A stretch of DNA of 64,000 nucleotides from NCBI GenBank assembly GCA_009676745.1, contig CP046062.1, forward strand, positions 498,501-562,500, written 5' to 3'. Made by a program: the position numbers and the translations under genes. Position 1 is the first letter of the stretch, and every line of letters begins with the position of its first letter. Shown here in pieces: positions 1 to 16,338 of the stretch. The notes under the pieces were generated by a model. It was not told the DNA's origin, searched no databases, and saw nothing but the letters and a program-made list of their open reading frames with translations. The DNA is from Leuconostoc mesenteroides subsp. mesenteroides. Its GTDB lineage: Bacteria; Bacillota; Bacilli; Lactobacillales; Lactobacillaceae.

Positions 1-621
1 CGCAATCTGAGTAGCAGTATCAAAGCCTAATCCAAAAAGAAAGCCAACAATTGCTACTTGCCAATTGTGCTTAATCATTCCTAATAGTTTCAAAAATAAA
101 CGATAAATCTTAGATGAATTAATTTGGCTGTCCGTACTGGCTTTAGTATGATGATTGCGCATAGCGATAAACTTCACCCAAATATCATGCAAGATAACAC
201 TATTAACGAGAGCCAACATCAACAACATGGTAGCTGCAATCAGCGTGCCTAAAGCACCTCCTATTTGCTCAAAAATAGGCATAGAATGTTTTGCCCATTC
301 GACAAATAGTACGGTTACCAATGCCATTAACACCACAACCATTGAATGTCCAAATGAAAAACTAAAACCAACACCTCGTGTATTTTTACCATCGTTGAGC
401 ATCTTACGTGTCATGTTGTCAATTGCTGCAATATGATCTACATCAAAAGCATGCCGCAATCCCATTGTGAAGGAAAGATAAGCCATCGCTATCATTTCAG
501 GATATCGAGTAGCACTTGTCATTAACAATAGCATTCCTGATATCAAAAAAAGAAGAATTATTGCGCCATAACGTATCGCATCGGACTGAACGGTTGCTTG
601 TTTTTTTATATTTAACATCAT
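1..621 (-). CDS. Nickel/cobalt transporter, NiCoT (HoxN/NixA) family, partial
   Basis: The gene runs off the left edge; the first 207 codons are present. It encodes a membrane permease for Ni2+ and/or Co2+. Two family signatures are visible: RHAFDVDHIAAIDN at about residues 60-73, which holds the HX4DH metal-binding motif in helix II, and LGFDTATQIA at the edge of the window. Several hydrophobic helices lie between. The start is taken at ATG 619-621, with AGGGAG about 8 nt upstream; the next codon is also ATG. The gene lies behind a long leader with a conditional terminator (802-1012). A further hairpin, TAGCACGA/TCGTGCTA at 748-776, sits between terminator and gene. The metal specificity cannot be read from sequence. 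Confidence 0.9.
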   Translation of the reverse strand, partial: MMLNIKKQATVQSDAIRYGAIILLFLISGMLLLMTSATRYPEMIAMAYLSFTMGLRHAFDVDHIAAIDNMTRKMLNDGKNTRGVGFSFSFGHSMVVVLMALVTVLFVEWAKHSMPIFEQIGGALGTLIAATMLLMLALVNSVILHDIWVKFIAMRNHHTKASTDSQINSSKIYRLFLKLLGMIKHNWQVAIVGFLFGLGFDTATQIA

Positions 622-801
622 AAATTTTTCTCCCTTTTTGCTGTAAAAATAAGATTATCACAGCAGCAATTATCGCGTAAATATGCTGAACAAATTGTGT
701 CTTTAACGAACTAAACTTGTCCTTTCATACTACCTTCGATTATTTTCTAGCACGACGCACATTTTAATTCGTGCTATTACCTTTTTAAGTTAAAAAGAAC
801 A

Positions 802-838
802 AAAAAACACCTCAACATTTACCAGTTGGGGTGTTTTT
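802..838 (-). terminator. Intrinsic terminator in the leader of the Ni/Co transporter
   Basis: On the minus strand a stem AAAAACACCCCAAC / GTTGAGGTGTTTTT closes an 8-9 nt loop and runs into a T tract. It lies 180 bp upstream of the transporter start, so it would stop transcription before the gene. Its 5' arm (CCCAACT, 824-830) is complementary to AGTTGGG at 849-855 of the same leader, which could hold the terminator open. Confidence 0.8.
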
Positions 839-1012
839 GCTCACTTGTCCCAACTATCTACTATGCAATAACCTATTGGTTTAGTAGATAGTCACTCAAA
901 GAACCTACTAAACATCAACTGAGAAGTAGGTAGAGGAGAGAATAATTCATTTTTTTAATTTTTTTGTTCATAATTTTTCCTCTTTTTCATATAATTTACA
1001 TTTTTTAATACA
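839..1012 (-). promoter_or_regulatory. Leader-peptide attenuator upstream of the Ni/Co transporter
   Basis: The minus-strand leader contains an 18-codon ORF (915-971) and ordered complementary strands. Strand 1 (924-931, inside the ORF) pairs with strand 2 (902-911). Strand 2 also pairs with strand 3 (881-892). Strand 3 pairs with strand 4 (854-863). The end of strand 4 pairs with the 5' arm of the terminator. Stalling on the ORF would mask strand 1, allow 2:3, free strand 4 and open the terminator. The same design, with compensating base changes, occurs at 15823-15997. The structure is read by eye; the mechanism is inference from classical amino-acid attenuators. Confidence 0.65.
915..971 (-). 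CDS. Leader peptide, 18 aa, leucine-rich
   Basis: Encodes MNKKIKKMNYSLLYLLLS. Five of the last eight residues are Leu, read by CTC, CTC, CTA, CTT, CTC. A good ribosome binding site, AGAGGA, lies 7-8 nt before the ATG. The stop codon TGA falls in the loop of hairpin 1:2, the usual position in ribosome-mediated attenuators. The leader peptide at 15899-15955 has the same length and its TGA at the equivalent place. Expected role: ribosome stalling when Leu-tRNA is scarce. No function of the peptide itself is implied. Confidence 0.6.
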   Translation of the reverse strand: MNKKIKKMNYSLLYLLLS

Positions 1013-4043: not shown

Positions 4044-4628
4044 TTATCCAAAATTAGGTCGCTGCTTTTCGAAGGCAGCAATTAATTTTTCATACTTCAT
4101 CGTATTATCAATGTCATCTTCACCATTGATAAACTTTTCTTTCCATTGTGAATTAATATCAAAATGAAAAGTATAGTTGTTATAGGTCACTGTTTGTTTA
4201 GGTAAATCAATTTGAATATTTTCATCTGCTTGAATACCCCGCAATATTCTCCGGTTTTCTTCGGGCAACACAATTGGTAACAAACCATTTTTAGTTGAAT
4301 TCATGTAAAATATATCTGAAAATCCACCGCCAATCACTGCTCTAAATCCATAATCCGTTAACGCCCAAACCGCGTGTTCTCGTGATGAGCCTGATCCAAA
4401 ATCATGCCCTGTAATTAAAATCGAAGCCCCTTGATGTGCTGGTTTGTTCAATTCAAACGCCTCGTTCAACGAACCGTCGTCATTATAACGCCAATCATAA
4501 AATAAATCTTTACCAAAGCCGGTCTTTAAAATGTTTTTTAAAAATTGTTTAGGCAAGATAATATCCGTATTAATGTTGTCATTTGGAATAACAACGGCTC
4601 TGCCTGTCTCTCTTACAAAAGCTTCCAT
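4044..4628 (-). CDS. leuD: 3-isopropylmalate dehydratase small subunit
   Basis: 194 residues, normal length. LeuD is the swivelling domain that with LeuC converts 2-isopropylmalate to 3-isopropylmalate in leucine synthesis. [18 protein letters not shown] near the start and [17 protein letters not shown] at ~73-89 are family signatures; the latter lines the active site. It follows leuC by 9 nt and ends the core leuABCD cluster. Confidence 0.96.
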
Positions 4629-4637
4629 ATCATTCCC

Positions 4638-6014
4638 CTATACAAATTCATCTGTCGTAATATCAACAAAGTGACCAGCAATCCCTGCTGCAGCAACCAT
4701 CGCTGGAGAAGCCAAATGCGTTCTCGATCCTGCACCTTGGCGCCCAATGAAATTTCTATTTGATGTTGAAGCAACATGTTTCCCCGCTGGAATTTTATCA
4801 GGATTCATCGCCAAACATGCCGAACATCCTGGTTCACGCCATTCACAACCAGCTTCTTCAAATATTTGAGCAATACCCGATTTAATTGCACGATTTCTTA
4901 TCGCACGACTACCAGGCACGACCCAGGCAGTAACATTAGGTGCTAAGTGATGGCCTTTCATCATATTCGCAGCAATTTCAAGATCTTCATAACGACTATT
5001 CGTGCATGATCCGATGAAAATGTAATCTAAATTAATGTCAACAGGCTTCATATTAGGCTGCAAGCCAATATACTCATAGGCGTTGGCGTCATTGTCATCT
5101 TTTATTGCTGGCAAAGATTGATCAACAGGTGTAGCCATGCCTGGATTTGTTCCCCATGTCACCATGGGCTTCAAATTTGATACATCAAAGGTCAACGTCT
5201 CATCAAAGTCACTTTCATTATCTGTGTAGAATTGTGACCAATAATTTTTAGCAGCTTCAAAATTCTTAGGTGCTTGTTCACGGCCTTCAATATAGTCAAA
5301 TGTCGTTTGATCTGGTTGTACCATACCCGTTCTTGAACCAGCCTCAATGGACATGTTGCATATCGTCATACGAGCTTCCATTGATAACTTCTCAATCGTT
5401 TCACCGTAAAACTCAATCGCATAACCAACGCCAAATGACACCCCATATTTAGCAATAATGCCCATGATAATATCTTTAGCGTATGTATTTTTGGGCAGCT
5501 TTCCAGTAACCTTAATTCCCAGAGTTTTTGGTTTAACTTGCCAAATTGTTTGCGTCGCGAGCACGTGCTCAACTTCGGAAGTACCAATGCCAAATGCAAT
5601 TGCGCCAAACGCACCGTGTGTCGCTGTGTGGGAATCACCACAGACGATTACTTTAGCAGGCTGTGTCAGACCCCGTTCAGGCCCCACAACATGAACGATT
5701 CCTTGCTTGTCATCACCAATTGATGCTAATGGGATGTCAAATTCCTTCGTGTTTTTGACCAATGTATCCATCTGCAATCGAGACATTTGATCTTGCACAT
5801 TAAATATATCTTGCGTTGGCACATTATGATCCATAGTTGCAAAAGTTAAATCTGGTCGTCTAACGCGGCGATTCGTACTTCTCAGTCCATCGAAAGGCTG
5901 CGGTGATGTTACCTCATGTACTAAGTGTAAATCGACATAAATCAATTGCGCCTCACCAACTTCCCCAGTAATAACATGTTTTTCCCAAATTTTGTCAAAG
6001 AGTGTTCTGCTCAT
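4638..6014 (-). CDS. leuC: 3-isopropylmalate dehydratase large subunit
   Basis: 458 residues. LeuC carries the [4Fe-4S] cluster of isopropylmalate isomerase. The three cluster cysteines are visible in [13 protein letters not shown] (~335) and in [11 protein letters not shown] (~395-405). [14 protein letters not shown] is the substrate-binding region. Its ATG overlaps the leuB stop by 4 nt (ATGA), which implies coupled translation. It needs Fe-S clusters, and the suf assembly operon lies a few genes upstream on the same strand behind a leader with Ile/Leu codons. Confidence 0.97.
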
Positions 6015-7084
6015 TGTATACCTACCGATTCATTATTTTTTATGTAATCAACCATTTTTTGTGTCACTTCATCGGTCGTCATTGTTCCACCCATGTCTGG
6101 TGTCACATAGTGGTTCTCAATAATGTAGTCTACTGCTTTAGTCATTTTATCGGCAATTCTTTTTTCACCAAAGCTTTCTGTCAACATCATAGCTACTGTA
6201 TTTACCATAGAAATTGGATTGGCTATGCCTTGGCCAGCAATATCAGGTGCTGAACCGTGAATTGGTTCATACAAATTAGGGCCGCTTGCACCAACTGACA
6301 TCGAAGGTATTTGTCCAATGGAACCTGTAATTTGTGCTGCTTCGTCACTTAGAATGTCTCCAAATAAATTAGGTATAATCACAACATCAAATGCGGTCGG
6401 CTTGGTCATAATTGCCATTGTCATCGCGTCAATATAGTAATAGTCGATTGTCACATCCGGATAACTTTTGCCAACTTCATTAGCAATCTTTCGCCAAAAT
6501 TTTGATGTAGCCAACACATTTGACTTATCAACAATGGTGACATGCTTGTTCCGCTTTTGCGCCATTTTAAATCCTTGGTGCATAATACGAGTTACTTCTT
6601 CTTCACTGTAATACATCGTATCAATTGCTTGATCTGCTTCCAGTTTACGTGGCTTGCCAAAATAAGCACCTGATGTCAACTCCCGAACAATGACAAAGTC
6701 CGTATTTTCTACATATTCTGGCTTCAATGGTGAACGGTCAATTTGTGCTGCCGTCACTTTGGTTGGCCGTATATTGGCAAATAAGTTCAGTTTTGATCTG
6801 ATTTCTAACAACCCTTGCTCCGGACGTCGTGACGCATTATCCCATTTTGGCCCACCAATTGCACTAAGTAGGATCGCATCAGCTTGTTTTGAAACATCAA
6901 TCGTTGATTGTGGTAGCGGGTCACCAGCCCGATCAATCCCATCACCACCAAATGGTGCATCTATCAGTTCATAAGCAAATGTTGTATCCTTTGTCGCAGC
7001 ATCCAATACTGCTAAACCCGATGTCATGATTTCCGGACCGATATAATCGCCTTTTAAAACTACTATTTTTTTAACTGATGTCAT
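6011..7084 (-). CDS. leuB: 3-isopropylmalate dehydrogenase
   Basis: About 357 residues. It oxidises and decarboxylates 3-isopropylmalate to 2-oxoisocaproate with NAD+. [19 protein letters not shown] marks the N-terminus; [13 protein letters not shown] and the nucleotide-binding stretch [15 protein letters not shown] are typical. An in-frame GTG at 7094-7096 lies inside the end of leuA; ATG 7082-7084, 4 nt after the leuA stop, is preferred. Third-to-second position in leuABCD, overlapping leuC by 4 nt. Confidence 0.96.
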
Positions 7085-7088
7085 ATTA

Positions 7089-8258
7089 TTAATCACTCAC
7101 CATCTCTTTTTCTTCAACAACTTGCATAATAACCTTTAACTGGTTATCTGTAATCAAATCAGACTCTTCGGCAACTGATTTAAAGATTGGGAAAATTACT
7201 TTCATATCATCACGAGTCACCGCGTACCCTAGGCTATTTAATTTTGACATGACCGCATGCGATCCTGATAGTTTGCCCAAAGGTAGTGTTGCCGTAGCAC
7301 CAACCATTTCTGGCTTCAAAATTTCATAGGTTTCTGGATTTTTTAAGTAACCATCCTGATGAATCCCAGATTCATGAGCAAAGGCATTGCGTCCCATAAT
7401 GGGCTTATTACCTGCAACTGGCACGCGGGTTGCCCGTGCGACAATGTCAGAAATGGCTTTTGATTGATCTAAAACAATAGCTGTTTCTGCGTCAAACTTT
7501 TCATGACGCACATGAATGGCTGCTGCCGCTTCAATCATATCGACGTTTCCAGCCCGTTCACCAATACCATTAATTGTGCCTTGAATCTCCGTTGCCCCAT
7601 GTGCAATGCCTGCCAAAGCATTAGCTGTTGCCATTCCCAAATCATTATGTGTATGTGTTGACCAACCAACTGTGTCAAAACCAACAATATTTTGACGCAA
7701 GTTTTCAAAAACCTCACCGTATTCTTCTGGTGTGTCATAACCAACTGTGTCTGGTATGTTAATCATTGTTGCCCCAGCGTCAATAGCTGCTTGCACACTA
7801 GCTACCAGAAAGTCGGGCTCGGTTCTTGTCGCATCTTCCGGCGAGAACACAATATCTTGCATATGTTGCTTAGTAAACATAACGTCTGCTTTAATTTTGT
7901 CTAAAATTTCTGCCTTGGTCATGTGTAATTTAAACTCACGATGAATTGGTGAAGTTGCGATGAACACGTGAATCATTGGATGCTTTGCATTCTTAGTAGC
8001 TTCAATAACTGCATTAATGTCACTTCTAATCATCCGTGCCAAACCAACAACTTTTGCGTTATCTACAACCTCGGCAATTTTTTTTACTTCTTCAAAATCT
8101 TTGTGAGATGCTGCAGGAAATCCTGCTTCAATCGCTGATACACCATAATCATCCAATCCTTTTGCTATTTCAATTTTTTCCGCAATTGAAAAATTGACGC
8201 CAATTGTCTGTTCACCATCACGTAATGTTGTATCAAAAAATGAAATAATTTTATCCAT
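7089..8258 (-). CDS. leuA: 2-isopropylmalate synthase, short form without regulatory domain
   Basis: 389 residues. It condenses acetyl-CoA with 2-oxoisovalerate, the first step of leucine synthesis. FFDTTLRDGEQTIGVNFS, STHTHNDLGMATANAL and GIGERAGN are the catalytic and metal-binding motifs of the DRE-TIM family. The usual LeuA is about 510 residues with a C-terminal leucine-binding domain; here the chain ends after the linker domains, so the allosteric domain is missing. ATG 8256-8258 is chosen because GGAGGG (8263-8268) lies just before it; an earlier ATG overlaps that site. A homocitrate-synthase-like role is less likely in a leuABCD context. Confidence 0.92.
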   Translation of the reverse strand: MDKIISFFDTTLRDGEQTIGVNFSIAEKIEIAKGLDDYGVSAIEAGFPAASHKDFEEVKKIAEVVDNAKVVGLARMIRSDINAVIEATKNAKHPMIHVFIATSPIHREFKLHMTKAEILDKIKADVMFTKQHMQDIVFSPEDATRTEPDFLVASVQAAIDAGATMINIPDTVGYDTPEEYGEVFENLRQNIVGFDTVGWSTHTHNDLGMATANALAGIAHGATEIQGTINGIGERAGNVDMIEAAAAIHVRHEKFDAETAIVLDQSKAISDIVARATRVPVAGNKPIMGRNAFAHESGIHQDGYLKNPETYEILKPEMVGATATLPLGKLSGSHAVMSKLNSLGYAVTRDDMKVIFPIFKSVAEESDLITDNQLKVIMQVVEEKEMVSD

Positions 8259-8277: not shown

Positions 8278-8323
8278 CAAAAAATCCTAAACCAATTCGT
8301 CTATCGAATTAGTTTAGGATTTC
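8278..8323 (-). terminator. leu operon attenuator terminator
   Basis: On the minus strand AAATCCTAAAC...AATTCG / CGAATT..GTTTAGGATTT forms a long stem followed by TTTTTT, just upstream of leuA. The inner part (8294-8309) is nearly perfectly complementary to 8342-8357 upstream, which gives a mutually exclusive antiterminator. Confidence 0.85.
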
Positions 8324-8485
8324 TAAATCACTTTTTTAACTATTCGTTAGACAAATTAGCCCAACGACACCAACAAAAAGCTCAGCTCGTTAGGTATACA
8401 CTTAACAAGTTGAGAAGAAGCACTTCATGATTATTCATATGTTGAATTGCTGTACTTGACATGAGTTACTTTCCTTTTAGTTTAT
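8324..8485 (-). promoter_or_regulatory. Leucine attenuator of leuABCD
   Basis: Strand 1 (8387-8394, at the end of the leader ORF; CCTAACGA on the minus strand) pairs with strand 2 (8360-8367; TCGTTGGG). Strand 2 can also pair with strand 3 (8342-8350). Strand 3 with its flank (8342-8357) pairs with the terminator core (8294-8309). A ribosome waiting at the upstream Leu codons leaves strand 1 free, so 1:2 forms and strand 3 opens the terminator. A ribosome that reaches the stop codon covers strand 1, 2:3 forms and transcription ends. This fits leucine-controlled attenuation as known for leu operons in other lactic acid bacteria. Confidence 0.8.
8382..8462 (-). CDS. leu operon leader peptide, 26 aa
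   Basis: A 26-codon ORF whose second half reads EVLLLNLLSVYLTS, with CTT CTT CTC and TTG TTA codons plus one CTA. AAAGGAAAG lies 6-9 nt before the ATG. Transcription from the promoter at 8492-8520 would start about 23 nt upstream. It serves as the ribosome stalling site of the attenuator and is too short to be a conventional protein. Confidence 0.8.
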   Translation of the reverse strand: MSSTAIQHMNNHEVLLLNLLSVYLTS

Positions 8486-8559: not shown

Positions 8560-8871
8560 TTAATAAAGTCCTAATGATATTCGTGCATAGCGACTCATTT
8601 TTTCAATATTCCAAGCCGGTTCCCACACTAATTGAATATCAACGTCTTTAACCTCTGCTAGACTCATCAAGGATTTTCGAATCATATCTTCCAAAACTTC
8701 TACCAATGGACAGCCCATGGTTGTTAGCGTCATTTGTATAATCACTAATCCTGTTTTTTCGATAAAATCGACGTGATAAATTAACCCAAGGTTCACAATA
8801 TCAATTCTTAACTCTGGGTCAACCACTGTTTGCAATGCTTCTAAGACATCAGATTCTATCGTTTGAGACAT
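8560..8871 (-). CDS. sufT: SufT-like metal-sulfur cluster maturation protein (DUF59/MIP18)
   Basis: 103 residues, the usual size. DPELRIDIVNLGLIYHV at ~17-33 and TTMGCPLVE at ~50-58, with its conserved cysteine, are the signatures of the SufT/PaaD/MIP18 family, which helps mature Fe-S proteins. It lies downstream of sufB and the NmrA-like gene on the same strand, so it may be part of a suf regulon. A perfect 12-bp palindrome CTAGTATACTAG followed by T's lies in the 56-bp gap upstream and could be a weak terminator or an operator. Confidence 0.82.
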   Translation of the reverse strand: MSQTIESDVLEALQTVVDPELRIDIVNLGLIYHVDFIEKTGLVIIQMTLTTMGCPLVEVLEDMIRKSLMSLAEVKDVDIQLVWEPAWNIEKMSRYARISLGLY

Positions 8872-8927: not shown

Positions 8928-9806
8928 TTAAATATTATCTGATAGTAAACTTTTTAAATTTTCTTTGAGATTATTTGCTTTAACCCCAGCTAATTCAGAA
9001 ATAGCTGTTGATGTCGTTGCGAATTTTTCTTCCCTAATCGACTTTTGCAATAAAGTAATAAATTCTGCATTTTCTCTAGCTACATCATGCTTCAAAAGAT
9101 AATCTGTCACACCATCATCAGATAAGGCTTTATGCGTAATTTCTGTATCCGTTATTTCACTCAATATTGTAGCAATTTCTGGATAACTGATTAAATGTTC
9201 ACGGGTAAGGTAATAAATCTTATTTTCATGCCCTTCTTCACTCAAAACAGTAGCATTGGCCAATGCTAAATCATCCCGTAGTACATAATTAAATGACATG
9301 CTATCCGTTGAAGAAACCAATTCTTTGGTTTTGATTGCAGTCAAAATATTTGGCTTCAACTCATCTAAGTAAATTGCATTTTTTAAAATGGTAAAGGGAA
9401 TATTTGTAGCTCGAACCATGTGTTCTGTTGCCATATCAACATCTTCTAAGCCAAATAATCTTTCCTGCGTCTCAGCAAGACTTATGAGATAAATATGTCC
9501 AACTTTTGCTTGATAGGCAGCTCTGACTACATTATATTGCTGTTGTAATCTGGTCATATTATCAAGTTCAGGTGATGAAATGATCAATAATTTTTCTACA
9601 TTTTGGAAGGCAGCAGTCATTTGACTCACATCATCGTAACCACCTTTTCGCAATGTAATACCTAACTTTGATAAATAAGTTGCCTTTTCTGGACGTCTAA
9701 CCAAGGCCGCTATCTCATCGGCAGGAATCTGTTTACTAAATAACAAATGTTGAATCGTCTTTGTACCAAGTTCTCCTGTTGCACCTGTAACCATTATTTT
9801 TTTCAT
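8928..9806 (-). CDS. NmrA/QorB-like NAD(P)-binding reductase
   Basis: 292 residues from the ATG at 9804-9806, which is preceded by GGAG at 8 nt; an in-frame upstream start lacks a binding site. MKKIMVTGATGELGTKTI is a Rossmann glycine-rich motif of the atypical short-chain dehydrogenase group (NmrA, NAD(P)H:quinone oxidoreductase 2). The substrate is unknown. It lies 53 nt after sufB without an obvious terminator, so it may be read through from the suf operon. Confidence 0.78.
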   Translation of the reverse strand: MKKIMVTGATGELGTKTIQHLLFSKQIPADEIAALVRRPEKATYLSKLGITLRKGGYDDVSQMTAAFQNVEKLLIISSPELDNMTRLQQQYNVVRAAYQAKVGHIYLISLAETQERLFGLEDVDMATEHMVRATNIPFTILKNAIYLDELKPNILTAIKTKELVSSTDSMSFNYVLRDDLALANATVLSEEGHENKIYYLTREHLISYPEIATILSEITDTEITHKALSDDGVTDYLLKHDVARENAEFITLLQKSIREEKFATTSTAISELAGVKANNLKENLKSLLSDNI

Positions 9807-9859
9807 AGCAAATACTCCATTATTTGTTATACATACCGACACTAAAATATCTATACAGC

Positions 9860-11293
9860 TTATCCTACTGATCCCACCATCTCAAATTTCATAAGCCGGT
9901 TTAATTCAACCGCATATTCCATTGGTAATTCTTTGGTAAACGGCTCAACAAAGCCCATAATAATCATCTCTGTGGCTTTTTCGGCAGAAATACCGCGTGT
10001 CATTAGATAATACAATTGTTCTTCGGATACGCGTGATACTTTAGCTTCATGCTCCATCGACACATTACCATTCAAAATTGTATTGTATGGAATCGTATCA
10101 GCGGAAGACTTATCATCCACCAAAATTGTGTCACACTCGACGTGTGCAAATGACCCATCAGATTCGCGGCCAAATTTCACTGTGCCGCGATAATCTGTGG
10201 ACCCACCATCGTGTGCAATCGACTTTGAAATAATAGACGACGACGTATTCTTAGCTTGATGAATCATTTGCGCGCCAGAATCTAGGTTAACGCCCTCGCC
10301 AGCAACAGCAATCGATAACATTGTACCCTTTGCGCCCTCACCTTCTAAATAAACTGATGGATATTTCATTGTCGTTTTTGATCCAAAATTACCATCAATC
10401 CATTCCATCGTGGCATTTTCATGCGCCGCTGCACGTTTTGTTTCTAATGAGTACACGTTATTTGACCAGTTTTGAATCGTCGTGTAACGGCAATAACCGT
10501 CTTTTTTAACAATCACTTCTACCACAGCAGCATGTAGCGCATCCCCTGAATACATTGGTGCTGAACAGCCCTCAACGTAGTCAACATGCGCCCCTTCATC
10601 AACAATAATCAATGTCCGTTCAAACTGACCTTCATTTTCTGTATTGATACGGAAATAAGATTGAATAGGTGTCGTTACATGAACACCCTTAGGCACATAA
10701 ATAAATGTGCCACCAGACCAGACTGCTGAGTTTAAGGCCGCTAATTTATTATTGGTTGGTTTAACTAATGATCCAAAGTATTCTTGAATAAGCTCCGGAT
10801 ATTCTTGCACTGCAGTGTCTGTGTCGGTAAAAATAATTCCTGTCTTAGCAAATTCTTCTTTCATACGATGATAAACCACTTCAGACTCATACTGAGCAGA
10901 AGACCCTGCTAGCCATTTCCTTTCGGCTTCAGGTACACCCAAACGCTCAAACGTTTCCTTTAATTCAGTTGGTACGTCATCCCAATCACGATATTTATCA
11001 TTTGCTGGCTTATTATAGTAGTAAATATCCTCAAACTGTATCTCGCTTAAATCTGGCCCCCATGTATGCATAGGCATTCTGAGGTATGTTTGATAGGCTT
11101 GTAACCGATATTCTAACATCCATTGGGGCTCATTCTTTTTGGCTGAAATTTGACGAATAATGTCTTCGTTTAACCCTTTTCCTGTTGAAAATACAGCCTG
11201 GTAGTTATCTTGAAACCCTAATTCGCTGGCCTTGTCATTTGAAATGGCTGCTTTTGTTTGATTAATAGCTTCTTGTCTGTCTATTTCCATCAT
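9860..11293 (-). CDS. sufB: Fe-S cluster assembly scaffold SufB
   Basis: 477 residues, full length. SufB with SufC and SufD forms the scaffold on which Fe-S clusters are built. SufB family regions such as [19 protein letters not shown] (~195-213), VEGCSAP (~240) and the C-terminal [20 protein letters not shown] are clear. Last core gene of sufCDSUB, 10 nt after sufU. Confidence 0.96.
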
Positions 11294-11303
11294 CGAAACC
11301 TTT

Positions 11304-11738
11304 TTATTTCTCTACTGCTAATAGCTCATCCAGAGCATGCCAAGCCAAAGTTGCGCACTTTATTCGCGTGGGGAATTGCGTAACCCCTGCTAGAATTTGT
11401 GCTTCTCCAAGAAGTTTAGTATCTGCTACTTCCCCACGTGTCAGTTTTGAAAACTCCTCAAGTAAGGTAGCGACAGCTTCACGACGCTGTCCTACTACTA
11501 AATCTGTCATTATTGAAGACGAAGCCTTTGATATAGCGCAACCATCCCCATAAAAATATATATCTGTTACTTTATTGTCAGTCATCTCAAAAGCTAAGTC
11601 AATGATATCGCCACAAGTGGGATTGTATTTTCGAACATGATACGTTTCTGTCCCTGACATAGGCTTATAATGGTGCGGATGTTGGGCATATTCCATGACC
11701 GTTTGACGATATAAAAGATCTAAATTATGCAAACTCAC
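11304..11738 (-). CDS. sufU: SufU zinc-dependent sulfurtransferase
   Basis: 144 residues from a GTG start at 11736-11738. SufU accepts persulfide sulfur from SufS. The Zn ligands are visible: YNPTCGD (Cys and Asp), [15 protein letters not shown] (Cys) and [12 protein letters not shown] (Cys). The GTG is chosen because AAGGAG lies 10 nt upstream inside sufS; a longer in-frame reading has no binding site. The gene overlaps the sufS end by 14 nt. Confidence 0.93.
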
Positions 11739-12951
11739 GGTTAAAATACTCCTTAATATCTTCAATGACACGAATCAATCGATCGATTTCTCCACGCGTA
11801 TTATAGATATACAAACTAATACGAACTGTCGCCGCAATATTCAAATATTTCATGAGTGGCTGTGCGCAATGATGCCCTGCACGAACCTCAATCCCTTCTT
11901 GATCCAAGGCCGTTGCTAAGTCGTGAGCATGGATTCCTGCTAAATTAAATGCCATCACACCTGAATGCTGTGCACTGTTTTGCGGACCATAAATAGTGAC
12001 ACCTGCAATACTTTTTAACTTCGGCAAAGCATAATCAACTAGAGACTGCTCATAGCTTTCAATTTCTTTCATTCCAATATTTGTCAGATAATCAATGGCG
12101 GCCCCTAAAGCAATTGCACCAGCAATATTGGGTGTTCCCGCCTCAAACCGCCATGGTGAAGGCTGAAAAGTCGCTTCTTGCAAGTCCACCAGTTCAATCA
12201 TTTCTCCGCCAAATTGAGCTGGTTTCATATTTTTTAAAATATCATGTTTGCCGTAAAGCACCCCTATACCTGTTGGTCCAAGCATTTTATGACCCGAAAA
12301 GGCAAAAAAGTCAACATCCATATCTTGCACATCAACACGCATATGCGGAACAGATTGGGCACCATCAGCAATCATGATAGCGTCGTGTTTATGGACTATT
12401 TTTGCGATTGCTTTTATAGGATTAACAACCCCCAACACATTAGAAGCATGTGTGATTGATACAATTTTAGTTTTGTCTGTTATTTTTCGCTCAAGATCAG
12501 CCATATTTAAGGTGCCATCGTCGTTAAGTTCAACATATTTTAAATGTGCCCCAACACGTTGCGCCAATTGTTGCCATGGCACAATATTAGAATGATGTTC
12601 CATGTAAGATATTAAGATTTCATCGTCCTGCTTAACATGTTCTGCACCATAAGTACTTGCTAACCAATTAAGTGATTCAGTTGTGCCACGAGTGAATAAA
12701 ACCTCTTCACGTTTTTGAGCATGAATAAATTCTTGTACTTTATCACGGGCTTGTTCATATTGTTGTGTCACACGCTCTGATAATTCATAAATACCGCGAT
12801 GTACGTTTGCATTATTATTTTGGTAGTAATTTACTAATGAATCAATCACATATTGGGGTTTTTGTGACGTAGCTGCACTGTCGAAATAGAGTAGTTCCTG
12901 CCCGTTGATAGTTTGATTAAGTATTGGAAAATCATGTCTAATCGTCTTCAT
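11725..12951 (-). CDS. sufS: Cysteine desulfurase SufS
   Basis: 408 residues. PLP enzyme that takes sulfur from cysteine for Fe-S cluster assembly. The PLP lysine is in FSGHKMLGPTGIGVLYG (~residue 223) and the catalytic cysteine is in RAGHHCAQPLMKYL (~361). The short active-site loop fits a group II enzyme that works with SufU. Its start overlaps sufD by 14 nt. Confidence 0.96.
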   Translation of the reverse strand: MKTIRHDFPILNQTINGQELLYFDSAATSQKPQYVIDSLVNYYQNNNANVHRGIYELSERVTQQYEQARDKVQEFIHAQKREEVLFTRGTTESLNWLASTYGAEHVKQDDEILISYMEHHSNIVPWQQLAQRVGAHLKYVELNDDGTLNMADLERKITDKTKIVSITHASNVLGVVNPIKAIAKIVHKHDAIMIADGAQSVPHMRVDVQDMDVDFFAFSGHKMLGPTGIGVLYGKHDILKNMKPAQFGGEMIELVDLQEATFQPSPWRFEAGTPNIAGAIALGAAIDYLTNIGMKEIESYEQSLVDYALPKLKSIAGVTIYGPQNSAQHSGVMAFNLAGIHAHDLATALDQEGIEVRAGHHCAQPLMKYLNIAATVRISLYIYNTRGEIDRLIRVIEDIKEYFNREFA

Positions 12952-14122
12952 GTTGTAATTTTCTTTCTATTTCTTCAACTATTTGCTTTTGTGCTGATTT
13001 TGTTGGCATTTTGGCCAAAACTTCACCCATGAAGCCACGAATAACTAGCTTGCGAGCCACTTGTTCGCTAATACCCCGACTCATTAAATAATACATTTGG
13101 TTTTCATCAACTCGGCCTACAGAAGCCGCATGACCAGCCGTCACATCGTTTTCATCAATGAGTAACAAAGGATTGGCATCTCCACGTGCGCGACGTGATA
13201 GCATCAAAACACGCGACTCCTGCTGCGCATCTGATCCTTTAGCACCCTTAACAATTTTTCCTATCCCATTAAATACTAAAGTGGAGCGATTGAGAATAAC
13301 CCCTCGTTGAAAAATATGACCAGTGGTATGGCGACCACGATTCAAAATAGTTGTTACCATCCCTTGTGTTTGTTTTTTTGTGGTGAGTCCAATGACATTT
13401 GTATGTGATGCAGCGCCCTCACCATTTAGCTGACTAGCTAATCGTATGATTGCATTACCGTCGTTAAACTCAGCATTTTGCCAGTCCACAGTCGCGTGAT
13501 TTCTTACATCAACTTCTCGATTAATAAATGCTGTTGTTTGTTCCCCAAACGCATCAATGTTAGCATAACTGACTTGGGCACCGACGTCTGCTACCGCTTC
13601 AATAACAACAGAAGCTTTTGTTTTTTGAGTCCCAATCGTGTGCATTTGTTGTAGTATGTCAACTTTGGCATTGGTACCAACGTATATAAAAATACGAGCC
13701 ACAAAATCCTCTCCAGATATAGCTAAATGATTCAATGACAGATGCAAAACACTATCAAATTGAACGTTTTCTGGTATATAAACAAAAATTCCTGTGTTAA
13801 ACTGTGCCAAATTTTGTGCTGATAATCGATCGGCTGTTTTGGAAATCACGCTACCTAACAGCTTTTCAACTAGTGCTGGATACTCAATCTGCGCTTGTGC
13901 CATATTCATCAGAATCACACCACGAGCAATCATATCATCCGATAATTGGTGATAAGTGGTAGATAGCCCACTCACTTCGATGCCGTGAACATTATCCTCA
14001 GCAAAATATGACATTGTCGTTTCTTCCTTGGCTGCTATCATTTTATCAAGTTGCCAGGAAGTGTATCGAACTTTAGCAAATGTTGGTAGTGGTAAAGAAT
14101 GCATTGCACTATTATCAACCAT
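12938..14122 (-). CDS. sufD: Fe-S cluster assembly protein SufD
   Basis: About 394 residues, paralogue of SufB and partner of SufC. The shared C-terminal core is visible: DVTAGHAASVGRVDENQMYYLMSRGI. ATG 14120-14122 follows the sufC stop by 1 nt and has GGAGGAT in the sufC tail; the longer in-frame reading is not supported. Confidence 0.95.
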   Translation of the reverse strand: MVDNSAMHSLPLPTFAKVRYTSWQLDKMIAAKEETTMSYFAEDNVHGIEVSGLSTTYHQLSDDMIARGVILMNMAQAQIEYPALVEKLLGSVISKTADRLSAQNLAQFNTGIFVYIPENVQFDSVLHLSLNHLAISGEDFVARIFIYVGTNAKVDILQQMHTIGTQKTKASVVIEAVADVGAQVSYANIDAFGEQTTAFINREVDVRNHATVDWQNAEFNDGNAIIRLASQLNGEGAASHTNVIGLTTKKQTQGMVTTILNRGRHTTGHIFQRGVILNRSTLVFNGIGKIVKGAKGSDAQQESRVLMLSRRARGDANPLLLIDENDVTAGHAASVGRVDENQMYYLMSRGISEQVARKLVIRGFMGEVLAKMPTKSAQKQIVEEIERKLQHEDD

Positions 14123-14123
14123 G

Positions 14124-14924
14124 TCAATCCTCCACAAAATATGAATTCACATCTTCATCTGTCAACGTAACGTTCAATCCAAGTTCATCTCGTAATCCCG
14201 CATATCCTTCAGATTCTAGTTTCTTAGCCAATTCAGCACCGCCTGTCTTAACTATTTTACCGCCCATCATCACATGGACAAAATCAGGCGCAATATAGTC
14301 AAGTAACCGTTGATAATGCGTAATCATAAGTGTGCCAAATTCACTGGAACGCATTTCATTGACACCACGAGAAACAACCTTTAGAGCATCAATGTCTAAT
14401 CCTGAATCAATCTCATCTAAAATAGCAATTTTTGGCTCTATCATCATCATTTGCAAAATTTCATTACGTTTCTTCTCACCACCAGAGAATCCTTCGTTAA
14501 GATAACGTTCTGCCATTTCTTCTGACATCGATAAGAATTCACGTTTTTCATCGAGTTTTGCAATGAAAGACATCACACCAATTTGGTCGTCCTCGGCACG
14601 ACGAGCGTTGATGGCTGCTCTCATAAATTCAGCATTAGTCACCCCTTGAATTTCAGATGGGTACTGCATAGCCAAGAATAGGCCTGCGCGAGCACGTTGA
14701 TCAACTGACATGTCAGCCAAATCTTGATCGTCCATATAAATATGACCTTCAGTAACTTCATATGCTGGATGTCCCATAATTGTTTGTGACAACGTTGATT
14801 TTCCAGTTCCATTTGGTCCCATAATAGCGTGAATTTCACCAGTATTGACGACTAAATTAACCCCCTTTAAAATTTCTTTTCCTTCTACTGAAACATGTAA
14901 ATCCTCTATCTTAAGTGTTGTCAT
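14124..14924 (-). CDS. sufC: SufC ATPase
   Basis: 266 residues. ABC-type ATPase of the SufBCD complex, with Walker A GPNGTGKST, signature FSGGEKKRNEIL and Walker B IAILDEIDSGLD. ATG 14922-14924 overlaps the end region of the upstream regulator: AGGGGA, TAA stop and ATG follow in one short stretch, so translation is probably coupled to that regulator. Confidence 0.96.
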   Translation of the reverse strand: MTTLKIEDLHVSVEGKEILKGVNLVVNTGEIHAIMGPNGTGKSTLSQTIMGHPAYEVTEGHIYMDDQDLADMSVDQRARAGLFLAMQYPSEIQGVTNAEFMRAAINARRAEDDQIGVMSFIAKLDEKREFLSMSEEMAERYLNEGFSGGEKKRNEILQMMMIEPKIAILDEIDSGLDIDALKVVSRGVNEMRSSEFGTLMITHYQRLLDYIAPDFVHVMMGGKIVKTGGAELAKKLESEGYAGLRDELGLNVTLTDEDVNSYFVED

Positions 14925-14925
14925 A

Positions 14926-15768
14926 TTATTTTTCCCCTCTTCGCTGACTGATTTTTTGTAAAATAACTTTATTTTTATGCATTTTTGCAATCACACGCGC
15001 ATTTTCAATCATCTCATTTACAATAAAATGCTGACTATCCCAAGTATCACTAGCTTGCACCAATAACCAAAAAAAGTTTTCTAAGAAATAAGTACTATCA
15101 CTTGTGTTCGCTAAATCAATGCCATAAGTTGCCAACATCATAGCATATTTGTAGTTTTTAATCGACATTTGATATTGAGCTAATAAATAAACAATTGCCG
15201 CTTGAAATCCAGAATGGTCTACTGTTGTATTTTCCTTTTGATAACGCCAAACATCTTCAAAAGCCTGGTGTGCTTCTTCAAATTGGCCGCGTTGATAGTA
15301 GTAATGACTCGTTATGGCATAAAACAATAATTTGTGTGTCCTATTAAGACCTGCTATATCAATTTTTTTAATGATTTGTTTTGCTCTGAAACAGTCTTGT
15401 TTTAAGATAACTGCAGAAAAATATTGTGTAATTTGATAGCATTCCCGTTCAGTATCAATCATTTTATCCGTTTGTACTTGTTTGATTAGATGCTCAAATT
15501 TTCCAATGTCTTGATAAAAAAGTGCTTGAGTGGCCAATGATAAAATACGCTCGTTGTCTGTTTGACGTATAGTAACATCGATTGGGAAAACATCATTCAG
15601 CGTTAACCCTAACCGTTCACACAAAGCAATCATGATATCAAAAGCTGGCACTTGTTGATGCTTTTCAAATTTTGACAAAGTAGCTTGTGTACAAATATCA
15701 GAACACAACGCCATTTGTGACATTTTCAAACGTTTTCTCGTAGTGATAAATTTTTCTATGTTGATCAT
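14926..15768 (-). CDS. XRE-family regulator with C-terminal TPR-like region (Rgg/RRNPP-like)
   Basis: 280 residues. Residues 1-65 form a Cro/CI helix-turn-helix (MSQMALCSDICTQATLSKFE). The rest is all-helical and TPR-like, with motifs such as AITSHYYYQRGQFEEAHQAF, as in RRNPP/Rgg regulators that sense short peptides. It is the first gene of the suf operon: its TAA stop lies 1 nt before the sufC ATG. GGGGGG precedes its ATG, immediately after the leader terminator. It may regulate suf or other genes; the ligand is unknown. A link to peptide signalling is family inference only. Confidence 0.75.
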   Translation of the reverse strand: MINIEKFITTRKRLKMSQMALCSDICTQATLSKFEKHQQVPAFDIMIALCERLGLTLNDVFPIDVTIRQTDNERILSLATQALFYQDIGKFEHLIKQVQTDKMIDTERECYQITQYFSAVILKQDCFRAKQIIKKIDIAGLNRTHKLLFYAITSHYYYQRGQFEEAHQAFEDVWRYQKENTTVDHSGFQAAIVYLLAQYQMSIKNYKYAMMLATYGIDLANTSDSTYFLENFFWLLVQASDTWDSQHFIVNEMIENARVIAKMHKNKVILQKISQRRGEK

Positions 15769-15786: not shown

Positions 15787-15822
15787 AAAAAAGGCATCTA
15801 ACTGCGCTAACAGTTAGGTGCC
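15787..15822 (-). terminator. Intrinsic terminator in the suf operon leader
   Basis: On the minus strand GGCACCTAACTG / CAGTTAGATGCC (one G-U pair) closes a 6-nt loop and runs into TTTTTT. It ends 19 nt before the start of the first gene of the operon. Its 5' arm CCTAAC (15813-15818) can pair with GTTGGG (15837-15842). Confidence 0.82.
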
Positions 15823-15997
15823 CGAACAAAAAATATCCCAACCGTCTACTAACTATAAGTTAATTAGCAGACAATCACTCAAAATAACCTACTAATCATC
15901 AGTTGATAAGCAGGTTACTGAGAATATTGTTTGGTTTTCTTGCATTTTTATTCATTAAGTCATTTTTCATTTCTGAGTAAAAACTCATATCTGTGTT
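15823..15997 (-). promoter_or_regulatory. Leader-peptide attenuator of the suf operon
   Basis: Same architecture as 839-1012. Strand 1 (15908-15917, in the leader ORF) pairs with strand 2 (15886-15896); strand 2 with strand 3 (15864-15872); strand 3 with strand 4 (15844-15852); GTTGGG next to strand 4 pairs with the terminator arm. Several base pairs differ from the other copy but stay paired (A-U against G-U). On the minus strand both share AGTAGGTT, TGAGTGA and GTTGGGA in the same order. Stalling on the leader ORF should allow read-through into the regulator and sufCDSUB. Mechanism is inference. Confidence 0.65.
15899..15955 (-). CDS. suf operon leader peptide, 18 aa
   Basis: Encodes MNKNARKPNNILSNLLIN, with ATT CTC and CTG CTT ATC codons near the stop. 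Length and stop position match the leader at 915-971. No strong ribosome binding site is visible before this ATG; an in-frame ATG at 15968-15970 would add five residues but is no better supported. Likely a stalling leader for Ile/Leu starvation. A pheromone role with the adjacent RRNPP-like regulator is an alternative, but the peptide lacks a secretion signal. Confidence 0.5.
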   Translation of the reverse strand: MNKNARKPNNILSNLLIN

Positions 15998-16003
15998 TAG
16001 ATA

Positions 16004-16032
16004 ATTATATTCCTATAATTTAAAAATGTCAA
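16004..16032 (-). promoter_or_regulatory. suf operon promoter, consensus
   Basis: On the minus strand TTGACA (16027-16032), 17-bp spacer, TATAAT (16004-16009): a perfect sigma-A consensus. Transcription would start near 15997, upstream of the leader ORF. Such a strong promoter followed by a terminator fits control by attenuation. Confidence 0.85.
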
Positions 16033-16338
16033 ATATCATTGGAAAACGGGTGAGTATGCGTCTGCATTTCACAAACATCAATACCTTATGGTTACTTTCT
16101 AAAAATAAACCAAATCATAAAGATTGGGGATATTTTGTTGATAATTATTGTACATCTCCACCATCCTTTTATATCATTAGAAAAACATTAGAGATTAAAA
16201 TATAAGGAGATTTATTTCATAAATCAAATTTTTAATGTAAATACCGATCATTCAATCATATCCAAATAGCCATTCAGTACGCTGCACTGGTATTTTTTGA
16301 TGAACAACGTAATTTAATACGCGTTGGCATCAAATTAA
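16033..16338. other. Intergenic region without a confident gene
   Basis: AT-rich stretch between the suf promoter and the ldh terminator. On the plus strand a 59-codon ORF (16026-16205) has no ribosome binding site and overlaps the suf promoter. The end of the region reads IQYAALVFFDEQRNLIRVG in one plus frame, which looks protein-like and may be a gene remnant, but no family is recognised. Confidence 0.4.

Follow-up and report, generated by a model that had tools for sequence, protein, structure and literature searches.

The window analysed here is a 64,000-nt stretch of contig CP046062.1 (positions 498,501 to 562,500) from Leuconostoc mesenteroides subsp. mesenteroides (GCA_009676745.1). 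Its minus strand carries a suf operon for Fe-S cluster assembly, with leuABCD located 3' of it on the same strand, and a leader with a short ORF and a terminator lies 5' of the first suf operon gene (Table 1). The operon opens with a gene for an HTH PlcR-like regulator, and sufC is second. Cysteines C26 and C50 of the PlcR-like protein were invariant in 14/14 sequences (alignment A3). Since a related HTH gene was found just 3' of a full sufCDSUB-DUF59 cluster in 13 of 66 other lactobacillus loci, the PlcR-like protein may be a suf regulator.

Anatomy of the suf leader

The perfect TTGACA-17-TATAAT promoter reported by the initial annotation was recovered with a 12/12 consensus match, as was the 18-codon leader ORF ending in ILSNLLIN, and the ordered strands with a terminator ahead of the first gene were extended from four to six pairing strands. 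The 17 kb scanned contained two perfect promoters of this kind, one of them that of the suf leader. The other is at 3080-3052 of the window, 5' of a gene resembling a PadR-type gene by eye. The Shine-Dalgarno sequence of the leader ORF looks weak. The terminator ends 18 nt 5' of the suf operon, for which the next ATG is at 15768. The fold of the suf leader was more stable than that of shuffled sequences (z -6.98; 0/200 shuffles as good).

Table 1. Features of the suf, leu and nicO regions in the window and further loci of the element; positions are those of the window unless a genome is named.
Feature	Position	Strand	Basis or remark
suf leader promoter, TTGACA-17-TATAAT	16004..16032	-	12/12 consensus match
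suf leader ORF, 18 sense codons, MNKNARKPNNILSNLLIN then stop	15899..15955	-	ends ILSNLLIN
Strand 1	15909..15915	-	pairs with strand 2; carries Leu codons CUG CUU; 83.8% of cells paired, 24 leaders
Strand 2	15887..15895	-	partner is strand 1 or strand 3; 24 leaders, 93.9% of 2:3 cells paired
Strand 3	15864..15875	-	3:4 helix 93.0% paired; both-side changes in 6/12 pairs
Strand 4	15837..15852	-	partner is strand 3, or strand 5 via GGUUGGG; 4:5 97.6% paired, 24 leaders
Strand 5, terminator 5' half	15812..15821	-	5:6 helix 96.6% paired; both-side changes in 6/10 pairs
Strand 6 and U-run of terminator	15787..15803	-	strand 6 15803-15794, U-run 15792-15787; terminator-like site in scan
HTH PlcR-like regulator, 280 aa, first operon gene	14926..15768	-	HTH_3 below Pfam cutoff; PlcR 2qfc profile E 4.2e-5 (weak match)
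sufC	14124..14924	-	ABC_tran and operon position; ORF list starts it at an upstream TTG
sufD	12938..14137	-	SUFBD_core
sufS	11725..12951	-	TIGR01979 above cutoff
sufU	11304..11771	-	NifU_N
sufB	9860..11293	-	TIGR01980 above cutoff
NmrA-like NAD(P)-binding protein, flanked by sufB and DUF59 gene	8928..9842	-	PF05368
DUF59-type Fe-S assembly protein	8560..8871	-	PF01883
Separate leader ORF of leuABCD, MSSTAIQHMNNHEVLLLNLLSVYLTS then stop	8382..8462	-	Leu-rich
leuA leader hairpin, terminator-like	8284..8322	-	read by eye; missed by terminator scan
leuA, leuB, leuC, leuD	4044..8258	-	ORFs identified from sequence and gene order; leuC above the TIGR00170 cutoff; LeuCD is the Fe-S isomerase; leuA start 8258 by eye
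nicO leader ORF (second copy), MNKKIKKMNYSLLYLLLS then stop	915..971	-	
Second copy, strands 2 onward and terminator	801..912	-	among the sequences from which R1 was built
nicO, nickel/cobalt transporter, runs off window	1..621	-	PF03824 E 6e-42
Apparent remnant of divergent ilvD (promoter/start region and later piece)	16112..16328	+	blastn
brnQ leader L121, Ile-rich peptide MTYQSVTTEEIIISIIIIR then stop	G000:C1:1767330-1767467		genome of the window
Further brnQ leader loci	L139, L136		
EIIC leader loci	L120, L122-L127, L129-L134, L096, L097, L105, L106, L108, L058, L110-L112		

Codon statistics were computed for 23 leaders (16 suf and seven nicO), with G004 left out. In their last nine codons, Leu, Ile and Val made up 127/207 codons in frame (61%), as against 51/207 (25%) and 34/207 (16%) in the other two frames, 33/200 in the remainder of the leader ORFs and a mean of 23.4% for 27 window genes. 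The Leu codons of these nine positions were CTC 41, CTT 23, CTA 15, CTG 3, TTG 1 and TTA 0. The leader ORFs therefore prefer CUC, the rarest Leu codon; in the 27 window genes, CTC accounts for 4.2% of Leu codons and TTA plus TTG for 67.5%. The need of strand 1 to pair may explain some of this bias. All 24 aligned leaders had the short ORF (starts picked by eye), whose putative control codons overlap the first pairing strand.

Conservation and alternative pairings of the element

The suf leader was found 5' of suf in 17/17 suf-bearing genomes among 19 genomes of the genus searched. Sixteen of these were read directly and G004, a fragmented and 89% complete assembly with a broken HTH gene and SufD fragments only, was counted by BLAST and its covariance model matches. 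All 16 leaders read directly had TTGAC(A/T), 17 bases and a TA-rich second box 5' of the leader ORF, which comprised 17-22 sense codons ending at the first hairpin (starts picked by eye). An exact pattern search of 201 family genomes matched the motif only within the genus (3/201), so a covariance model was adopted. This model, R1, was trained on 16 suf, seven nicO and one EIIC leaders found by BLAST or reading. It gave matches in 19/19 genomes of the genus (E up to 1) and in 45/397 family genomes (E up to 0.01), including those 19; outside the genus, matches below E 1e-4 occurred in four genomes (G025, G036, G089, G115). The matches examined above E 1e-4 were L135, L137, L138 and L139. L139, 5' of brnQ in G013 (E 3.8e-4), was accepted on its peptide and gene, and L135, L137 and L138 (E 2.8e-4 to 6.1e-4) were rejected by eye, two being tRNA-gene-like and one being without the leader layout. 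In the parts read, the BLAST matches L013, L015 and L060 did not prove to be leaders. True leaders cast reverse-strand shadows of up to 31.7 bits, and R1 scores near 30 bits were therefore regarded as noise.

The covariance model search, which the initial annotation had proposed as a check, found leaders beyond the training set 5' of brnQ in three genomes, 18 more EIIC genes of the genus, the nicO gene of G001 and an HTH-DUF59 pair of Fructobacillus. R1 marked 13 of the 14 named HTH loci of Leuconostoc/Fructobacillus and 0/66 other lactobacillus loci; the 13/14 is not independent evidence because 12 of the loci have leaders identical to A2 ones and L148 has the same sequence as G089, leaving only L. 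fallax as new. No match to R1 was obtained at the leuA leader of the window. Rfam gave no family at gathering score for any of these leaders. T-box models were not matched anywhere in the window at gathering scores, nor by the suf, leuA or nicO leaders when E values up to 5 were allowed.

Two folds were drawn by hand on alignment A2, which contains 24 leaders (16 suf, six nicO, one extra nicO copy of G014 and one EIIC): a terminator fold (1:2, 3:4, 5:6) and an antiterminator fold (2:3, 4:5). The decayed nicO leader L056 of G014, which has no intact ORF, and G004 were left out of both A2 and the 50-leader alignment A4; the leader L128, the brnQ leaders and two leaders of G115 were included in A4 only. 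Both folds are favoured in the A2 tests because they were drawn from those same sequences. For the terminator fold, 92.0% of cells formed standard pairs (26-47% when slid; 0/500 shuffles reached this value), both-side changes were found in 13/29 pairs (1/500 shuffles as high) and the covariation score was 0.307 against 0.151 in shuffles. For the antiterminator fold, the respective values were 95.5% (25-52% when slid; 0/500), 4/16 pairs (4/500) and 0.212 against 0.156. In both folds, cells paired and covariation score were above all 500 shuffles and all slid versions, and the pair-type count was not clearly above shuffles (107/500 as high for the terminator fold and 50/500 for the antiterminator fold).

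In A4, the terminator fold had 91.8% of cells paired, both-side changes in 25/29 pairs and a covariation score of 0.430 against 0.177, in an alignment that leans toward this fold because it was model-fitted to it. As in A2, cells paired and covariation score were higher for both folds than in any of the 500 shuffles or slid versions. The antiterminator fold, which is absent from R1, had 89.5% paired and a covariation score of 0.203 against 0.147, with two of five measures not above shuffles, namely both-side pairs (5 against 3.3; 74/500) and pair types (20 against 19.6; 259/500). The brnQ leaders fitted 2:3 and 4:5 poorly. By predicted pairing, mutually exclusive terminator and antiterminator folds are present, with mixed support in the 50-leader alignment. 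Calculated free energies favoured the 3:4 hairpin over 2:3 in 24/24 leaders, and with strand 1 covered and strand 6 unmade the antiterminator was the minimum-energy fold in 3/24, with one more mixed. The energies thus favour the 3:4 hairpin and the terminator side, so a switch would have to rely on the order of folding.

In the classical leu, ilv and trp attenuators of enterobacteria, the control codons are on strand 1, the stop codon is at the first hairpin and the pairings are mutually exclusive. The suf leader shares these features; its differences are the six strands, a 4:5 antiterminator of its own and a target in cofactor assembly. Among Gram-positive bacteria, branched-chain amino acid genes are reportedly also attenuated at ilv of Listeria monocytogenes, where the biosynthetic operon and not suf is controlled. 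The Rfam family RF01743 (leu-phe_leader of Lactococcus) has a general layout in common with the suf and nicO leaders; it matched the nicO leader weakly over its full length (17.4 bits, E 1.7) without reaching its gathering score of 70, and it did not match the suf leader. Like the suf leader, the ilv-leu attenuator of Staphylococcus aureus has, in the available part of its description, a short Leu/Ile-rich ORF, alternative hairpins, a terminator and branched-chain control; unlike the suf leader, it controls the biosynthetic operon, has a predicted antiterminator directed at the poly-U tail and involves no Fe-S assembly genes in that part of the account (PMC5794164). According to the same part, branched-chain attenuation is also predicted for Lactococcus, Corynebacterium and Streptococcus (PMC5794164), and the Listeria monocytogenes ilv attenuator is the subject of another paper (PMC5864092).

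Other genes behind the element

The second copy of the element, which the initial annotation placed at 802-1012, precedes a gene for a NicO nickel/cobalt transporter and not a suf or leu gene. The claim that its strands keep pairing despite base changes held: the copy has the same architecture and strands as the suf leader with a differing terminator sequence, and both folds are conserved across the 24 leaders. Its own fold was better than most shuffles (z -3.38; 2/200 as good). nicO was found behind such a leader in eight genomes of the genus (Pfam run on those of the window and G001; further loci L014, L056, L128). Between nicO and branched-chain amino acids, no link is obvious. G014 has two nicO copies, one with a suf-type leader divergent from ilvD and the other with the decayed leader (L056).

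A 380-aa EIIC protein, recognised by its shared N-terminus, is encoded behind the element in 19/19 genomes of the genus, and Pfam assigned PTS_EIIC_2 (PF13303) to it in L120 and to its relative in L112. The EIIC leader ORFs were located by their Leu-codon pattern (which matched 21/21 loci given), and the start was chosen via a Shine-Dalgarno-like stretch. Across 21 EIIC-class leaders, the eight LLLNLLLI codons had seven synonymous and two non-synonymous variants. A branched-chain-binding-protein-like gene lies 3' of EIIC in 7 of the 18 genus loci read, one of which was tested. In G115, two tandem EIIC genes each have a leader, with peptides ending in LLLSLLMYS and VIIIISLLNN before the stop. 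G115 shares its genus code with the Fructobacillus genome G089, and the two G115 leaders are of a Leu type and an Ile type. An orphan PTS_EIIC_2 gene behind a Leu-rich attenuator was also seen in three genomes outside the genus (G025, G036, G115).

brnQ was found behind the element in G000, G013 and G036, with peptides ending in IIISIIIIR or IIISAVII before the stop (families tested in G000 and G036) and with weak R1 scores of 42-47 bits. The brnQ leaders are Ile-rich and the EIIC leaders Leu-rich. The position of the element before PTS_EIIC_2 suggests that EIIC takes part in branched-chain amino acid transport, and on its leader this orphan protein may transport branched-chain amino acids instead of forming part of a sugar PTS.

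This range of targets bears on two other readings of the short ORF. Because the first suf operon gene resembles PlcR, with the ORF adjoining it, and because the peptide in the clade of the window starts basic and ends hydrophobic, the ORF could encode a signalling peptide that is secreted and then recognised by the PlcR-like regulator, as in RRNPP-style quorum sensing, with the RNA hairpins being secondary. The same type of RNA and peptide, however, stands before nicO, EIIC and brnQ, and a similar peptide before leuA, none of which are such regulators; the genus as a whole does not retain the basic start, and in the 13 lactobacillus loci with an HTH relative after a full sufCDSUB-DUF59 cluster no leader was found. 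A signalling peptide is accordingly considered very improbable. Slightly less credible still is that the leader senses antibiotic-stalled ribosomes, as do the drug-inducible attenuators of transporter genes: a short ORF, a terminator with an antiterminator and several transporter targets would suit such a device, but the targets include suf and brnQ, and the codons track Leu, Ile and Val, differing between brnQ and EIIC leaders.

Branched-chain amino acids and proposed control of suf

LeuC and SufB/SufD occurred together in 17 of the 19 genomes of the genus, and neither was found in the other two (G010, G011), which retain the EIIC leader. Because suf lies next to leu, a single deletion could account for both losses in G010 and G011. 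Leuconostoc fallax has HTH-suf; its assembly, of unstated completeness, gave no LeuC match, and no suf leader was found in it by R1 or reading. In Fructobacillus tropaeoli (L148), the leader, HTH and DUF59 genes lie beside a divergent ilvD with no sufCDSUB between HTH and DUF59, and LeuC lies outside this 16.8-kb piece.

The proximity of leuABCD allows the reading that suf is a passenger, co-transcribed from a leader that really serves leuABCD. In 11 of the 14 named Leuconostoc/Fructobacillus loci, DUF59 is followed immediately by leuA (of the other three, the L152 contig ends inside suf), and the terminator scan of the window, which also missed the leuA hairpin, lists no terminator-like site between 8560 and the leuA leader. 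On the other hand, leuA of the window has a promoter-like sequence (10/12 match) and a terminator-like hairpin of its own, a Leu-rich leader ORF was present at leuA in 12/12 loci read (chosen by a script favouring Leu/Ile/Val and a Shine-Dalgarno), and the leader of Fructobacillus tropaeoli still stands before HTH-DUF59 with LeuC outside that piece. We regard this reading as unlikely, though more plausible than a signalling peptide or drug sensing.

The suf leader is instead proposed to be a ribosome-mediated transcription attenuator that responds to branched-chain amino acids and has the HTH-suf operon as its target, with a probability of about 0.86. Branched-chain attenuation is favoured by the codon content and frame, the alternative pairings, the brnQ and transporter targets, the co-occurrence of suf with LeuC and the case of L. 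fallax, where suf is present and neither LeuC nor a leader was found. The promoter, ORF, codon content, alternative pairings, terminator, genus-wide conservation and position of the element before brnQ are legible in the DNA as annotated here; from them we infer stalling, read-through, a response to branched-chain amino acids and a purpose. RNA polymerase would start at the consensus promoter and a ribosome would translate the 18-codon peptide. With Leu (and Ile) tRNAs charged, the ribosome would run on to the stop codon, which lies in the loop separating strand 1 from strand 2; 3:4 would pair followed by the 5:6 terminator, and suf would be off. With Leu or Ile tRNA uncharged, the ribosome would stall on the control codons over strand 1, 2:3 and 4:5 would pair, the terminator would be prevented and the HTH-suf operon would be read. 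The purpose would be to supply clusters for LeuCD and, where retained, IlvD.

The proposal of the initial annotation that branched-chain control matches the cluster need of LeuCD and IlvD is supported comparatively, and its IlvD part fails here, as the genome of the window has no ilvD. Only the apparent remnant remains beside the suf leader, matching the ilvD region of G013 by blastn with 99/144 and 39/47 identities (both at E 5e-10 when just the two sequences were compared). ilvD is present in 6/19 genomes of the genus; it adjoins the suf leader in five and a suf-type nicO leader in the sixth, G014. The suf peptide has NILSNLLIN in the genome of the window at the place where the ilvD-bearing sister G013 has NILIILLIS. 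In the last ten codons of the suf peptide, Ile plus Val numbered 4, 4, 3, 5, 4 and 4 in genomes with ilvD and 2, 1, 3, 1, 3, 3, 1, 0, 1 and 3 in those without, a higher count with ilvD by a one-sided Mann-Whitney test that ignores relatedness (p 0.001); four of the ten genomes without ilvD still have three Ile/Val codons. Leu codons in suf peptides did not differ by ilvD status (p 0.89). On the HTH tree, ilvD and Ile/Val gave three independent contrasts on well-supported branches and five on all branches, none contrary and some without a difference, in an underpowered comparison (p about 0.25-0.5).

A further and more tentative idea, which we hold to be possible but somewhat doubtful, is that the attenuator is an indirect gauge of Fe-S clusters. 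The peptide would spell, genome by genome, the amino acids that are made with Fe-S enzymes (Leu through LeuCD; Ile and Val through IlvD) and would be rewritten upon loss of ilvD. A shortage of clusters would then cause a shortage of these amino acids, a stall and expression of suf, giving a homeostatic loop without an Fe-S-binding regulator.

The available parts of the open-licence literature contained no report joining suf or isc control to branched-chain attenuation. The nearest idea there concerns Fe-S formation and tryptophan synthesis in Corynebacterium (PMC11995493). The fungal factor LeuB/Leu3, like the suf leader as read here, couples leucine supply to iron metabolism; it is a eukaryotic DNA-binding factor, with no attenuator in the portion of the source at hand (PMC6221358). 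The mechanism of attenuation is classical, suf is an unexpected target and the Leuconostoc regulon is apparently undescribed.

The element ties nicO and the orphan PTS_EIIC_2 to branched-chain amino acids, and the suf leader system is compact and found in food bacteria. In the known cases, Fe-S assembly is mostly controlled by proteins that sense clusters or iron. Here, an Fe-S assembly operon is apparently governed by tRNA charging, via the metabolic product of its own client enzymes, and the cell appears to build its cluster machinery when it is short of amino acids whose synthesis depends on clusters.
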